Shown here one piece after another: positions 8,002 through 30,731 of a stretch of DNA of 37,529 nt. Under the pieces are notes generated by a model. The model was not told where the DNA came from, searched no databases, and saw nothing but the letters and a program-made list of their open reading frames with translations. Each line of letters begins with the position of its first letter. Position 1 is the first letter of the stretch. The translations under genes and the position numbers were made by a program. Source of the DNA: Bacteroidales bacterium (GTDB lineage Bacteria; Bacteroidota; Bacteroidia; Bacteroidales; VadinHA17); the NCBI GenBank assembly GCA_030692905.1, contig JAUYBT010000030.1, positions 1-37,529 of the forward strand, in the 5' to 3' direction.

Positions 8002-9249
8002 GATAACAGTTTTGATTTTTTCAAACTTCACCCTGTTTTCCTCTGACACTGGTTCTACGGGAGGTGCATCAACTTTCAGAGGATCGACCGATGATCCGTT
8101 CCGATAAAATCTGAAATCGAGATGGGGTCCGGTTGAAAGCCCGCTGCTGCCAACATAACCTATTATATCACCCTGTTTAACAGGGGCGCCCGGTGAAATA
8201 CCCTTACCAAACCTGCTCAGATGCAAATATGCAGTTGCATAAACACTATTGTGTTGAATTTTAACTACCCTTCCTGATCCGATTTCAGTTTTGGCTGAAA
8301 TAATTTTGCCATCGCCTATTGACTGAACGGGTGTACCAACAGGAGCAGCATAATCAACTCCAAAATGGGGCCTTCGTATTCTCAGAATCGGATGGAGCCT
8401 GCTTGATGAGAAACGCGAGCTTATTCTCGAAAACTGCAACGGTGCTTTTAGAAATGCTTTCCTCATGCTGTTTCCATCAATGTCGAAATATGTTTCTTTT
8501 CCATCCTGAATAAATGGTATAGCAGTAATTGAAGAACCTTTCCTATTAAACTGAGCTCCATATATTTTATCTGTTCCCAACGACTTGTTATCGATAAAAA
8601 GTTCTTCATAAATTACCTTAAAATTGTCTCCTTTCTGTAATCCGAAGAAATCGACTGTCCATGCAAAAATATCATCAAATTCAACTACCAGTGAAGGATT
8701 CAGGCCTCCTGCAATCATAGCATCCCAGAGTGAGGTTTCGATAGTCCCCGATGCATATTTGATTTCACTTTTTATCTCCTTTCTGAAAGGCGTAATATTA
8801 AGCGAATCATTAAAGCTGAATACATAACAGGTTGAAGGGTCATGTTCGTATACCAGATACCTCGCCCTGGCAATATTGTCTCTGTCGCAAAAAAGGGTAT
8901 AGTTATTACCCGACCTGATATTTCTTACATCAAAAACTGTTTTGGAATTTTTAACTGCCTGGTCAATCTCCTGCATACTGACACCTTGTTTTATGAGAAT
9001 TTCTGACAGGAAACCATTTTGCTTGATGTGACCGTAAACCAATTTGAATGAATCAGAAGGGATTCCATACAAAAAGACCGGACTGCTGATTTTTTGATTA
9101 ACAGCTGTATCTGTTGCAATTGATGCAATTTCAGGGTTGCTGTTCACTGAATTATTACAGGAAACTGAAAGAGATATAAAAGCAATTGTGATTATGGATT
9201 TTAGGTTGGTATACATCAATATATCAGTATAATTTGTGTGTAAGACCAA
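7975..9249 (-). CDS. M23-family peptidoglycan peptidase, probable lipoprotein
   Basis: HPILRIRRPHFGVDYAAPVGTPVQSIGDGKI, GPHLDFRFYRNGSSVDP; N-terminal signal with lipobox-like SLSVSCNN. Start may be the Met at 9216. Confidence 0.92.
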   Translation of the reverse strand: MVLHTNYTDILMYTNLKSIITIAFISLSVSCNNSVNSNPEIASIATDTAVNQKISSPVFLYGIPSDSFKLVYGHIKQNGFLSEILIKQGVSMQEIDQAVKNSKTVFDVRNIRSGNNYTLFCDRDNIARARYLVYEHDPSTCYVFSFNDSLNITPFRKEIKSEIKYASGTIETSLWDAMIAGGLNPSLVVEFDDIFAWTVDFFGLQKGDNFKVIYEELFIDNKSLGTDKIYGAQFNRKGSSITAIPFIQDGKETYFDIDGNSMRKAFLKAPLQFSRISSRFSSSRLHPILRIRRPHFGVDYAAPVGTPVQSIGDGKIISAKTEIGSGRVVKIQHNSVYATAYLHLSRFGKGISPGAPVKQGDIIGYVGSSGLSTGPHLDFRFYRNGSSVDPLKVDAPPVEPVSEENRVKFEKIKTVILSLLGTFN

Positions 9250-9331
9250 AGACCGAAGACCGAAGACCGAAGTCAGAAGTATTGATCCTGATTGCTTCCG
9301 GCTTCCGACTTCCGATTTCTGACTTCTGACT
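9244..9331. repeat. Degenerate short-word inverted repeat, 3' side of leuS
   Basis: Left arm gaccaaagaccgaagaccgaagaccgaagtcagaagt; right arm cttccggcttccgacttccgatttctgacttctgac, an imperfect reverse complement. Confidence 0.8.
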
Positions 9332-9333
9332 TT

Positions 9334-11997
9334 TCAATTTTTAATCACTATGTTAACGATCCTGTTCGGAACAACTATTATATTCGAAGGAGTAGCAGTT
9401 CCAATCCATTTCTTAGCCCTCTCATCAGCCAGAACTATTTTAATGATTTCTTCTTTGGAAAGGTTGACCGGGAGTTCAATTTTAAACCTCATTTTACCGT
9501 TAAATGATACCGGATAATCAAAGATGTCTTCTTTCAGAAACTCCTCATTGAATTCAGTCCATGGCTCATATGAAAGAGTTTCATTATGACCCAGCAGATG
9601 CCATAATTCCTCAGCCATGTGTGGCGCAAAAGGAGCAAGGACCTTTGTAAATATACAGGCGGTATCAACTGTTACTTTACCCTTTTTTGTTGCAAGGTTG
9701 AGGAATATCATCATTGCAGAAATTGCTGTATTAAACCGTAGGTTTTCAATATCCCCCTCTACTTTTTTGATAACATGGTGAAGTGCTTTTACGACCTCTC
9801 CATCTTCCTCTCCCTTAGTTATATTCTCCGGATTTGACAGGAACCTGAAAGTTCTCCCAAGGAACCCGAATACTCCTTTGACGCCTTTATCGTCCCATGG
9901 TTTTGTAACATCAAGTGGCCCCATAAACATCTCATAAAGTCTTAGGGAGTCAGCCCCGTATTTTGATGTAACATCATCGGGATTAACTACATTCTTGAGC
10001 GATTTTGACATTTTTGCGACGATCTGTTTCAGTTTGTCACCTGTCTCTTTATGGAAGTATTTGCCCTCACGCTCTTCAACCAGATCACCTGAAACCTTGG
10101 ACCCTGATTCAGTTTCGTAAGCAAAGGCAAGGATCATTCCCTGGTTGAATAATCTTTGATAGGGTTCGTCTGTTGAGACAATTCCAAGGTCAAATAATAC
10201 TTTGTGCCAGAACCGGCTGTAAAGGAGGTGAAGGACAGCATGTTCAGCGCCACCAATATAAAGATCAACCGGCATCCAGTATTTCTCTTTTGTCAGGTCA
10301 AAAATTATTTTGTCATTTTTCGGATCAATAAACCGGAGGTAATACCAGCACGATCCTGCCCATTGAGGCATGGTATTGGTTTCCCTTCTGCCTTTGCGTC
10401 CGTTTTTATCAGCTACATTCAACCATTCAGTTGAGTTTGAAAGAGGTGATTCGCCCGTTTCGCCTGGAAGATATTTTTCAAGTTTAGGCAGTTCGAGGGG
10501 AAGTTCATTCTCGTTCATCGCTGTAATTTCTCCATCTTCCCAATGAATTACAGGAAATGGCTCACCCCAGTATCTCTGTCTGCTGAAAAGCCAGTCGCGG
10601 AGCTTATAGTTAACTTTCGCTGTTCCCAGGTTTTTTGTCCCAAGCCACCTGGTAATATGAGCGATACCAGCATCTTTATTCATGCCGTTTATGTCAATAC
10701 CGGTCGATTTATCTGATGAGTTAATATATTTCCCGTCTTCAGTCCAGCATTCCTTCCCGTCAAGGATTCTTTTCTTCTGCTCTGAATCAGAAACATCAGG
10801 ATCTTGTATGCAGACAATAGGAAGATTGAATTTTTGAGCAAATTCGAAGTCCCTGGTGTCGTGAGCAGGAACAGCCATAATTGCACCTGTGCCGTAACCT
10901 GTTAATACATAATCAGCTACCCATATCGGTATCTGCTTCTTATTTACAGGATTAATTGCATACCTGCCGGTAAAGATCCCTGTTTTTTCTTTTGCAAGAT
11001 CAGTCCGGTCAAGGTCTGATTTAAGAGAAGTAGCTTTAATATAATCGTTAACGGAATTTTTATTGTCATGTATTGTAATTGCATCTGTAAGAGGATGTTC
11101 AGGTGCAATTACCATATATGTTGCTCCAAATAATGTGTCGGGCCTTGTTGTAAAAACGGTCAAATTTTCGTTTAATCCTTCAATTTTAAAATCAACTTCA
11201 GCTCCGGTTGAGCGCCCTATCCAGTTGCGCTGCATATCTTTAATCCCTTCAGGCCAGTCGAGTTTATCAATGCCTTTCAGCAGCCGTTCGGCATAAAGTG
11301 GAATGCGGAGCATCCATTGTTTGAGATTTTTCTTTTCAACCCTGTTCCCGCATTTCTCATGAGAACCATCAGTCATGACCTCTTCGTTTGCGCATACTAT
11401 CCGGCAGCTTGGACACCACCACACCAAGGCATTGTCGTAGTATGCAAGTCTCTTGGAATCAATGTATTTAACTATCTCTTTCTGACCAAGCTTTGCAATG
11501 TTTTCCGGTAACTTTAATTCGGAAATTGGTCTTCCTCTCTGCAATTTATCATCGAACCATGTATTATAAAGCTGTATAAATATCCACTGGGTCCATTTAA
11601 AATAGCCGGGATCAGTTGTATTAATTTCTTTGTCCCAGTCATAACTTAGTCCGAGTTCTTTTATCTGTCTTCTGAAAGTATCACAATTGTTATTTGTGGT
11701 AATTGAAGGATGTGTTCCGGTTTGTATGGCATACTGTTCTGCAGGAAGGCCGAATGCATCCCATCCCATTGGGTGGAGTACATTGAATCCTTTCATCCTT
11801 TTGTATCTGCTGAAAATATCTGTTGCTGTATATCCCTCAGGGTGACCCACATGCAGACCTGCCCCTGACGGGTAAGGGAACATGTCGAGAATATAACACT
11901 TTTTCGGATTAGTTAAATCTTCCGGAGTTTTAAAGGTTTTGTTATCCTCCCAGTATTTCTGCCACCTCTTTTCAATTTCGTGGAAATTGTAATCCAT
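9334..11997 (-). CDS. leuS: Leucyl-tRNA synthetase
   Basis: 887 aa with class [13 protein letters not shown] (HIGH-type), [14 protein letters not shown] (KMSKS), [20 protein letters not shown]. Confidence 0.98.
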
Positions 11998-12030
11998 CTT
12001 GCTCTTTTCTTGATAAGTTGTTTCTAATAA

Positions 12031-12124
12031 GTCCGAAGACCGAAGTCAGAAGTCCGAAGTTTAAAGATTGCCACCGTATCTATAATTCTTAACTTCTGAC
12101 TTCCGACTTCCGACTTCCGACTTC
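12031..12124. repeat. Degenerate short-word inverted repeat, 5' side of leuS
   Basis: Left arm gtccgaagaccgaagtcagaagtccgaagt (12031-12060); right arm aacttctgacttccgacttccgacttccgacttc (about 12091-12124). Shares exact 21-mer CCGAAGACCGAAGTCAGAAGT with 9260-9280. Confidence 0.85.
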
Positions 12125-12257
12125 ACAGCATTTAAACCTGATTAGTTAAAATAGTTTTAATGCTGAATATGAGTCTGCGAAAATAGAAAATCTTTGGCAA
12201 ATTTCATTAATGAGGTGTTGCAATAGATGGTCGGATCAGGTAAATTTACTGAATTAG

Positions 12258-25524: not shown

Positions 25525-25615
25525 GGGGATTACATGCGGTGATCCCTTGTGGGGGTTCCTTGCAAAGCCAAATTACTCCCTTATTCGTTTCACTCGTATT
25601 GTCTTTTTCTTTTCT
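25525..25615 (+). repeat. Direct repeat copy 1
   Basis: ggggattacatgcggtgatcccttgtgggggttccttgcaaagccaaattactcccttattcgtttcactcgtat...; roughly 90% identical by eye to 30476-30566. Confidence 0.9.
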
Positions 25616-27224: not shown

Positions 27225-29810
27225 ATGAAAACCCGTATTATCTTCACTGCCGTCGTATTGGTTATCCTTTCCTTAACCTGCCTCGCACAGGCCCCTGCAG
27301 GCAGAAAAATTCTGCTTAAAGATAACTGGGCAATACAGTCTTCCAATGAAATCAAGCCAGACGGTAAAGCCATTTCAAATACCGGCTTCAATACCAATGG
27401 ATGGTATCCCACTTCTGTGCCTGCAACTGTTCTTGCTGCATTAGTTGCCAACAAGGTTTACCCCGATCCCTATTTTGGAACCAACATCAAAAACCTTCCC
27501 GGTACAACCCCCGAGCGGAACAGAGACATGCCCGATGGCAGTCCGTTTAAGGTTGCCTGGTGGTACCGTACCGAGTTCAAACTCCCTGCCGATTATAAAG
27601 GAATGCACACCTGGCTGCAGTTTCACAGCATCAACTACAAAGCAAATATCTGGCTGAACGGCAAGCTTATTGCCGATACAACCACTATTGAAGGTGCGTA
27701 TCGTCTCTTTAACCTCGATATTTCAAAAGAAGCCTTACCAGGCGATAACAATTGCCTGGCCCTGGAGATATTTCCTCCAAAGGGAATGGACCTTACCATC
27801 ACCTGGGTTGACTGGAACCCCACCCCGCCCGACCGGGGCATGGGTATATGGTACGACGTGTCCGTTCATGCAACCGGTGCAGTGGCAATTGAAAACCCCC
27901 ATGTGGTAACAAAGCTGAACCTGCCGTCAACCGACCAGGCCAGACTCACGGTCACGGCAGAACTGCGGAATGCAGAGAAGAAACCGGTAACAGGAATGCT
28001 GAAAGGGACCATTGAAAATATTACTTTCTCGCAAGAAGTAAAGCTGGGAGCCGGGGAAACAAAGCTGGTGAGTTTTCTGCCTGAGACATTTCCCCAACTG
28101 GTGATGGCTAATCCGCGCCTCTGGTGGCCGCATACAGTAGGTCCCCAAAACCTTTATGACCTGAACCTTAGTTTTGAGGCCTCAGGCAGTACAACGGACA
28201 CCAAAAAAGTGCGCTTTGGCATTCGCGAGATCACCGCATGGATGAACAATTTCGACAAACTTCATACAAAAGTTTTCCAGGTGAATGGTAAGAACATCGT
28301 TATCAGGGGCGGCGGCTATGTGCAAGACCTGATGCTGCGGCCATCCAATGAACGGACAGACGCAGACCTGTTGTATGCAAAGCACATGAACCTGAATACC
28401 CTGAGGATGGAAGCTCCGCGGGGCTCTGATTATTTGTTTGAAAGGTGCGATGAAGAAGGCATTTTGCTCATGGTGGGCTGGTGCTGCTGCAGTGCATGGG
28501 AACGCTGGAAAAACTGGACACCGCACACAGGTGATGTGGCCGAATTGAGCTGGAAAGACCAGATTGTCCATCTGCGCAATCATCCTTCGGTTTTTACCTG
28601 GCTATACGGAAGTGATAATTTCCCACCCCCTGATGTTGAAAAGAGATACATCAAAGTATTGGATGAATATGACAACACCCGGCCTTATGAATCTTCAGCC
28701 ACCCAGGCCCCCAGTACCATTACCGGCTTGACCGGTGTGTGGATGGGTCCCTATCCAAAGGTGTATGCTTATTTCCCACCTTCCTACTGGTATACGAAAC
28801 TGGAGTTCAATACGGAAGCCGGTCCCACAGGCGAACAATTGCCGCCAATCGAGACAATGAGGCGGATGATGCCCGAAAAGGACTTGTGGCCCATGAGTGA
28901 ATCATGGGATCTGCGCCTGCATAAAGCATTTTATCCGATTGCAAGGGCAGCTCTTGAATCACGCTATGGTAAACCAACCGGCGTGGAAGAGTATTGCATG
29001 AAGTCGCAGGTGTTTCAGAATGAGGCTGTAAAGGCCATGTTCGAGGCTTTTGCAGGCAATAAATACCGTTCCAGCGGCATTATTTACTGGATGTACAACT
29101 CCGCCTGGCCCAAGATGTACTGGCAATTGTACGACTATTATTTTATGCCCAACGGGGCTTTTTACGGGGCAAAGAATGCCTGCGAACCGCTGCATATCCA
29201 GTATTGCTATGATGACAATTCAATTAAAATTGTGAATTGCTTTTACAAGGATTTTAACGGATTGAAAGCATCCGTGAAAATCTTTGATTTCAATATGGCT
29301 GAAGTCTGGTCGAAAGTGGTAGATGCCGGTGTAGCTGCCGATGAGAGCAAAAAAATACTGAACCTTGAAATTCCAAAGGATATTACAAAGGTTTATTTCC
29401 TCAAGTTGGAGTTAAAAGATGCTTCAGGAAAACCGGTATCATCCAATTTTTATTGGTTAAGCTCCAATGGGGATGAGAAGGCCGATTTTACTGATCTCAG
29501 CAAGCTTCCCGTGGCGAATGTAAATGTTACTGCATCAGCAATGCAGCAGGAAGGAAATAAATGCCGGCTCACGGTTACCATTGAAAATCCGGGTACGGGA
29601 CTAGCTTTTGCTGTGAATCCAAAGATACTGAAACTGACTTCCAAGGATCCGGTACTGCCTGTGTTCTGGGAGGATAATTATATTTCGCTCCTGCCAAAGG
29701 AAAAGCGGACGCTGCAGGTTGAATTCGACGTGAAAAATCTGAATGGTGAAAAGCTTCTGCTGAAAGTTGAAGGGTGGAATGTGAATGTGGTGGAAAAGGA
29801 AATTAGGTAG
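27225..29810 (+). CDS. Glycoside hydrolase family 2, exo-beta-D-glucosaminidase-like
   Basis: Signal peptide; GH2 domains; YGSDNFPPPDVEKRY and LEFNTEAGPTGEQLPPIETMRRMMPEKDLWP resemble the GSD acid/base and EtsaGP nucleophile regions of CsxA-type enzymes. Confidence 0.85.
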   Translation: MKTRIIFTAVVLVILSLTCLAQAPAGRKILLKDNWAIQSSNEIKPDGKAISNTGFNTNGWYPTSVPATVLAALVANKVYPDPYFGTNIKNLPGTTPERNRDMPDGSPFKVAWWYRTEFKLPADYKGMHTWLQFHSINYKANIWLNGKLIADTTTIEGAYRLFNLDISKEALPGDNNCLALEIFPPKGMDLTITWVDWNPTPPDRGMGIWYDVSVHATGAVAIENPHVVTKLNLPSTDQARLTVTAELRNAEKKPVTGMLKGTIENITFSQEVKLGAGETKLVSFLPETFPQLVMANPRLWWPHTVGPQNLYDLNLSFEASGSTTDTKKVRFGIREITAWMNNFDKLHTKVFQVNGKNIVIRGGGYVQDLMLRPSNERTDADLLYAKHMNLNTLRMEAPRGSDYLFERCDEEGILLMVGWCCCSAWERWKNWTPHTGDVAELSWKDQIVHLRNHPSVFTWLYGSDNFPPPDVEKRYIKVLDEYDNTRPYESSATQAPSTITGLTGVWMGPYPKVYAYFPPSYWYTKLEFNTEAGPTGEQLPPIETMRRMMPEKDLWPMSESWDLRLHKAFYPIARAALESRYGKPTGVEEYCMKSQVFQNEAVKAMFEAFAGNKYRSSGIIYWMYNSAWPKMYWQLYDYYFMPNGAFYGAKNACEPLHIQYCYDDNSIKIVNCFYKDFNGLKASVKIFDFNMAEVWSKVVDAGVAADESKKILNLEIPKDITKVYFLKLELKDASGKPVSSNFYWLSSNGDEKADFTDLSKLPVANVNVTASAMQQEGNKCRLTVTIENPGTGLAFAVNPKILKLTSKDPVLPVFWEDNYISLLPKEKRTLQVEFDVKNLNGEKLLLKVEGWNVNVVEKEIR

Positions 29811-30320
29811 GTGTTAGGGTAAGTGTGTGCCTTGAATGAGCCTTATCGAAAGATGAGAATCAATGCTGTAAGTAAGATGGAGGAAGGCCCTCCGCAGGTG
29901 TTGTACAGGCGAGACCTGCAAACCGTCCTACGGTGCTTCTCGGGTGACTGAGCGGTATTGAACGGTTAGGGAAAAAGTCCTGTTGGAAGGATTAGGTAAG
30001 GATAGAAAAGATGAACGAAAGTGAACCTCTGTTGAAGTGCCGTGAAAACGAACTTCCTGTCAAAACTACCGTTTACTTACGACGGAGGATAAATGTAGCG
30101 GGCACCTGTTTACTGGCTACATGGCAGGCGTCATAGAGGAAGCATGATTTCTATTCGGGCTTACTTATGGAACAAGGGAAGTCTTGCAGAGATGCAAAGG
30201 GAAAGGCACAAGCAGGGGAAACACTTGCGAGGCTGAATACTGATGATCTGCAAGATGGCGGACTACCTCGTAGTAGTGAAGAAGCTTCTGTAATGGGAGT
30301 GGAGCGAAGGGGGTAGCAGC

Positions 30321-30380
30321 TTAATACGTCGCTAAATGAACAACTGTATTTACAGGAGGATTTAGCCAGCGAAGTATTAA
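30321..30380 (+). ncRNA. Group II intron domain IV, reduced to a short hairpin
   Basis: TTAATAC/GTATTAA outer stem, CGCTAAAT/ATTTAGccAGCG inner stem; no room for a reverse transcriptase ORF. Confidence 0.7.
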
Positions 30381-30385
30381 CTGAA

Positions 30386-30419
30386 GAGCCGTATGATGGG
30401 AGACTATCACGTACGGTTC
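30386..30419 (+). ncRNA. Group II intron domain V
   Basis: GAGCCGTA-TGATGG-GAGA-CTATCA-CG-TACGGTTC: 34 nt, AGC triad, GNRA loop, 2-nt bulge. Confidence 0.95.
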
Positions 30420-30475
30420 CGTGAAAGGTTTGGGGGTGAAATTCCCCCTTACCTATTCGACTAATGAAAATCGGA

Positions 30476-30566
30476 GGGGATTACCTGCGGTGATCCCTTG
30501 TGGGAGTTCCTTGCAACGCCAAATTACTCCCTTACTCGTTTCACTCGTATGGACTTTTTATTTTCA
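30476..30566 (+). repeat. Direct repeat copy 2
   Basis: ggggattacctgcggtgatcccttgtgggagttccttgcaacgccaaattactcccttactcgtttcactcgtat...; same orientation as 25525-25615. Confidence 0.9.
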
Positions 30567-30636
30567 TAGCTTTCCCAAACTGGTTTTGGAAAGCTATGAA
30601 AATAAAAAGCCCCCGGCTTTGCCGAGGGAGTAATTT
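30521..30636. repeat. Nested palindrome next to tRNA-Ser
   Basis: Outer 12-bp arms AAATTACTCCCT (30521-30532)/AGGGAGTAATTT (30625-30636); inner perfect 22-bp arms 30554-30575/30588-30609. Confidence 0.9.
30608..30628 (-). terminator. Rho-independent terminator of tRNA-Ser
   Basis: - strand CCCTCGGC-AAA-GCCGGGGG-CTTTTTATTTT. Confidence 0.7.
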
Positions 30637-30642
30637 ATCTTT

Positions 30643-30731
<89 letters not shown>

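Follow-up and report, generated by a model that had tools for sequence, protein, structure and literature searches.

Group II introns usually encode their own protein. ORF-less introns of this class in bacteria and archaea have been reviewed (PMC4424553) and counted in a prokaryote survey (PMC8919778); they usually share a genome with related introns that carry an IEP, and the review describes them as rare in bacteria and does not expect non-mobile forms to last (PMC4424553). In Thermosynechococcus elongatus, the ORF-less introns of the TeI3 family are mobilised by the TeI4c IEP (PMC2882425), and in Clostridium tetani the ORF-less intron C.te.I1, a full ribozyme, resides in a genome that has no IEP (PMC4424553, PMC3919590). 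Here we describe an intron of the same kind in a Bacteroidales genome, within a 37,529-nt stretch of DNA that was analysed as a whole and that we call the window. The window intron adds to a known kind, ORF-less introns moved in trans, and it resembles TeI3 in its intact ribozyme, in a DIV that has lost the ORF but kept DIVa, in its good EBS/IBS match and in having an ORF-bearing relative in the genome. The two cases differ in their histories: one deletion gave rise to the 17 TeI3 copies of a single genome, whereas here many losses of the ORF took place, and the clade of the window intron extends over several host genomes. For T. elongatus, mobility in trans has been demonstrated (PMC2882425); for the window intron we infer it, and this intron is most likely a non-autonomous group II intron that is spliced, and was once inserted, by an IEP acting in trans.

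The intron occupies positions 29825-30461 of the plus strand, which is also the strand of its domains and exons, and its 637 nt (GUGUG...AC) are delimited by Rfam matches, folding, covariation and an 84% identical homologue. Its 5' end reads GTGTGCC at 29825, in agreement with the GTGTG start given in a preliminary description of this DNA, and its 3' end is AC at 30461; both ends follow the GUGYG/AY rule, and the homologues end alike. The covariance-model search suggested in that description recovers both the core of DI (RF01999, group-II-D1D4-2, at 29879-29997; 84.6 bits, E 8e-16, gathering cutoff 36) and DV-DVI (RF00029, at 30384-30461; 61.1 bits, gathering cutoff 40), the parts whose sequence and structure the window intron has in common with these Rfam models, which are silent on IEP coding. 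The consensus structure of five ORF-less introns assigns DI to 29830-30177, DII to 30178-30259 and DIII to 30263-30316, and together with RF00029 it assigns DV to 30385-30420; DVI, at 30422-30459, follows from RF00029. DV (GAGCCGUAUG..CACGUACGGUUC, 30386-30419) has the canonical 34 nt noted earlier, with the AGC catalytic triad at 30387-30389, a GAGA tetraloop of the GNRA type and the bulge expected of a group II intron, and the hairpin first described only as DVI-like matches RF00029 and offers A30455, at position -7 from the intron 3' end, as the candidate branch point. The minimum free energy of the 637-nt intron is -218.9 kcal/mol, compared with -182.8 +/- 4.8 for shuffled sequences (z -7.5), and all six domains are already visible in that fold. 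The window intron is a structurally intact six-domain ribozyme with standard ends, in line with the intact catalytic domains described earlier.

Where does such an intron differ from one that carries its protein? No RT or maturase ORF was found inside 29825-30461, and no RT was found anywhere in the window, which bears out the earlier statement that the reverse transcriptase is missing. That DIV is a mere hairpin also held, but its bounds did not: in place of roughly 60 nt at 30321-30380, the consensus helix of the ORF-less introns spans 30317-30383, 67 nt that are free of any ORF, with a basal stem that shows covariation in a comparison of eight ORF-less introns. This DIV contains a DIVa-like hairpin, CAACU-stem-AGGAGGA (30341-30358), which is kept in DIV of ORF-less introns and which ORF-bearing relatives have immediately before the start of their RT. 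Of its five consensus pairs, three have changed on both sides within the window intron's own clade. Known group II IEPs bind DIVa (PMC2882425), and by that likeness the hairpin may be the IEP-binding site. A short DIV might also be an artefact of assembly, a longer RT-bearing intron having been collapsed or made chimeric in a draft MAG that is 88% complete in 258 contigs, and repeated introns do break contigs of this genome (C63, C77). However, the 67-nt DIV is a closed, covarying hairpin, and independent genomes, isolates among them, have full-length introns that also lack the ORF and agree with the window intron in size and DIV, which leaves the artefact scarcely any probability.

The 84% identical homologue, from a genome of another family in the same order (G012), is identical at that level over its full length of 634 nt and is likewise ORF-less. 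In a tree of 76 introns, built on DI-DIII plus DV-DVI with DIV excluded, the window intron and five other ORF-less introns, each of the six from a different genome, form a clade (support 98/91.8) next to an RT-bearing intron of G231. An intron of the window intron's own group (L053, in G233 C116) is truncated after DIII and continues, without DV, into unrelated sequence. We examined covariation in the five full-length introns of the clade, namely those of the window, of G012, of two Bacteroidales MAGs and of one genome labelled only Bacteroidetes. Among 194 consensus pairs, 49 have changed on both sides with pairing kept, and these are distributed over all six domains. None of 500 shuffles, a control that leaves sequence relatedness in place and so may be inflated, reached 49 such pairs, and sliding the consensus structure by 1-3 columns, a control that retains relatedness, reduced them to 2-8. 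Because double-changed pairs persist in the ORF-less clade and collapse in the slid controls, the ribozyme has been kept after the loss of the ORF.

These compensatory changes also bear on whether the intron is dead, a decayed copy being one of three options raised in the preliminary description. On this reading the intron, having lost its ORF, would be degenerating at an intergenic site where a failure to splice is harmless. It does lie outside any coding sequence, and the order does hold decayed ORF-less copies (G118, G129 C138), but these are visibly different from the window intron, in which all domains, the DV triad, the DVI adenosine and EBS1/IBS1 are intact. Since relatives at 84% identity keep their pairs by double changes, and since compensatory changes are found in all six domains within the ORF-less clade, we take the window intron to be no decayed relic and consider that reading very unlikely.

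The gene upstream (27225-29810) matches GH2 Pfam domains, and between its stop codon (TAG, 29808-29810) and the intron lie the 14 nt of the 5' exon (29811-29824), so that the intron sits past the gene and not inside it, exactly as first noted. The 3' exon begins with TAATGAAAATCGGA (30462-30475), and this stretch is followed by a repeat hairpin and then by a tRNA-Ser gene (30644-30731, on the strand opposite to the intron). IBS1 (GTAAGT, 29819-29824) and EBS1 (ACTTAC, 30075-30080) form the 6-bp match reported before, with Watson-Crick pairs at six of six positions. Inspection by eye yielded no assignment for EBS2-IBS2. The EBS1-IBS1 pairing holds family-wide: for 18 introns from the order, some ORF-bearing and some ORF-less, EBS1 and IBS1 pair at 5.61 of six positions on average, compared with 4.36 in mismatched combinations (p < 1e-5), and in nine ORF-less introns alone the means are 5.56 and 4.31 (p 8e-5); in a wider set with 39 distinct EBS1/IBS1 combinations, 0 of 20000 shuffles reached the observed pairing. 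Within the window intron's own clade the combinations are ACTTAC/GTAAGT in the window, GCTTGT/GCAAGC in G012 and ATTAAT/ATTAAT in fen980, so this ORF-less lineage, like that of TeI3, has made several insertions at matched sites. EBS1 and the 5' exon have changed together, and therefore the ORF-less introns were inserted by normal target pairing and re-aimed. No orthologous empty site could be read among relatives in the genus and family; these relatives do have counterparts of the GH2-like gene and of the tRNA-Ser side, but on separate contigs or with other neighbours.

The surroundings of the intron hold several further elements. A 90-nt repeat, 92% identical between copies, occurs at 25525-25614 and 30476-30565 of the window and again at 30020-30063 of contig C123 of the same genome (G000); it contains a strong small hairpin (GGGATTACC..GGTGATCCC), and the C123 copy starts like the 3' end of a tRNA-Ser gene. 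Between the intron and the tRNA-Ser gene, at 30553-30608, lies a very long, near-perfect hairpin with arms of about 22 bp, probably a two-way terminator. Elsewhere in the window, 14-nt tandem units (AAGACCGAAGTC-like) at 9242-9340 and 12029-12138 flank one gene.

If the window intron depends on a protein, which one might serve it? A search of the same genome for an intron bearing an RT or maturase, as the preliminary description had suggested, found a sole group II IEP gene on contig C63, where 318 aa with RVT_1 and maturase (GIIM) domains are interrupted by the contig end (238.7 bits to TIGR04416); the DV-DVI of that intron is 88% identical to that of the window intron. The genome holds two other fragments, an intron end with a DIV of the ORF-less type that is cut by the start of contig C77, and the 5' portion of a further, distant group II intron on C160, a contig that has no overlap with C63. 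The RT motif of the C63 IEP reads YADN (L013 7163-7100, minus strand), a reading that could come from a single base or from a sequencing error; wherever else the motif could be located among IEPs of the family it is YADD, except for FADD in L247. The C63 IEP may thus be a maturase without RT activity.

We propose that transcription of the GH2-like gene carries the intron along in the 3' untranslated region, that the intron RNA then folds, and that it would be removed by branching with the help of a maturase (IEP) provided in trans from a different group II intron. Such an IEP may recognise the DIVa hairpin that was left behind after the loss of the ORF, and the arrival of the intron at its site would have been reverse splicing guided by EBS1/IBS1 with an IEP of this sort. 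Because the only IEP gene found reads YADN, help with splicing is likelier than new insertion as the present-day role of this genome's IEP. A maturase in trans is the best supported of the three options in the preliminary description, on the strength of the compensatory changes and of an IEP gene in the genome, albeit one with a YADN motif and cut by a contig end. Life on the protein of a related element is the most likely mode because the RNA is intact and ORF-less relatives stand at new matched sites in other species.

The third option, a ribozyme that splices in vivo with no need of a protein, would place the window intron beside C.te.I1 of C. tetani, which it resembles in being ORF-less and a full ribozyme (PMC4424553, PMC3919590). 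The strong, intact fold would suit such a ribozyme, as would the several genomes, isolates included, that have ORF-less introns and show no IEP. We found no group II IEP in eight of the 15 genomes of the order that hold ORF-less introns, and among 19 isolates two had no IEP, Subsaximicrobium wynnwilliamsii (with four ORF-less copies) and Marinifilum N1E240, and one had a 70-aa relic only; these missing IEPs are weak evidence because draft genomes lose repeated elements. The isolates of Mesonia (L189), Subsaximicrobium (L153) and Marinifilum (L178) all carry ORF-less introns with no intact group II IEP detected, and that of Mesonia has six near-identical copies. An IEP in trans may therefore not always be present. 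However, unlike C. tetani, the genome of the window intron does have an IEP gene, its DIV retains the DIVa-like hairpin and so has not been freely trimmed, and insertion at matched new sites requires reverse transcription; self-sufficiency accordingly seems improbable here, though less so than decay.

The window intron does not stand alone. When 393 genomes of the order were searched with a covariance model built on the 3' part of the ORF-less introns, a high-scoring group that is ORF-less stood apart; after manual inspection of the lower scorers, the number of genomes with ORF-less copies came to about 15. A pattern scan for the same short DIV across GTDB species genomes returned 91 stretches, mostly from Bacteroidota, a figure that is neither a total nor a rate because the pattern covers one type of DIV only; even so, it stands against the rarity described in the review (PMC4424553). 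The matches include Gelidibacter, Mesonia, Subsaximicrobium, Leeuwenhoekiella, Maribacter, Cyclobacterium, Marinifilum and Sunxiuqinia, and the few beyond Bacteroidota come from Gammaproteobacteria, Scalindua, Desulfurivibrionaceae and one archaeal MAG, MAG labels being liable to error. We could delimit 57 of the matches as full length, mostly 620-870 nt. No viral contig in IMG/VR matched the intron, and plasmid matches were partial, none covering 80% of it.

On the tree, introns must have switched between the ORF-bearing and the ORF-less state at least 12 times, the direction of each switch being left unsettled by counting because the sampling favours ORF-less introns (60 of the 76). A single ORF-less clade for the whole set was ruled out by the AU test (p 7e-7). 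In one ORF-less intron (L105, in G066 C242), remnants of the two ends of the lost RT ORF can still be recognised in DIV, which on this sequence evidence marks a recent ORF deletion. Judged from the genome sequences, copies lacking the ORF are a common and recurring feature of Bacteroidota. Their spread and repeated origin in this phylum are unreported in the open-access literature that we searched, itself a partial sample, and their breadth there seems to have been under-reported.

Some of these relatives occupy special sites. One ORF-less clade (L160, L165, L170, L175, L183, L199, L218) is found head to tail with a second group II intron, directly behind the 3' end of the latter (junction ..CTACTCGAC|GTGTGCTG), and the GTCGAG of its EBS1 can pair at every position with CTCGAC, the conserved intron 3' end; in G398, G402 and G411 the upstream intron of the pair carries the RT. 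Insertion at precisely such 3' ends of group II introns may be the specialty of this clade. Flavobacterial ORF-less introns (L189, L162, L205, L217, L215, L156, L176 and others) have a common target, ..CGCNACTNNTCATA(T)|ACNNAACCGTTRGC, that resembles an arm of an integron attC-like hairpin, and one Mesonia ORF has such a site on either side, in the manner of a cassette. At nine sites of the flavobacterial type, GTT begins 7-8 nt past the intron. A general hairpin scan gave a weak signal, 102 matches compared with 65 in shuffled DNA, and although the 7-8 nt offset was noticed post hoc, its sharpness in the nine relatives is suggestive of attC-like targeting. In this, and in their cassette orientation, some ORF-less relatives recall the IIB intron UHB.I2, which lies beside attC (PMC7923331). 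The window intron, unlike UHB.I2 with its CL1 IEP (PMC7923331), is ORF-less and not at a hairpin site. An attC-type target was considered for it since relatives of its own clade insert 13 nt past a CGTT motif, and was rejected, as folding the joined flanks of the insertion site gave no attC hairpin.

In reviews, bacterial group II introns that lack an ORF are taken to be rare, immobile and short-lived, while organelles and the spliceosome illustrate the outcome when introns live on a shared protein. The window intron and its relatives provide many natural cases in which to study dependence on a protein in trans, the specificity of IEPs and the fate of introns without a detectable IEP, some of them in culturable isolates that carry several near-identical copies.
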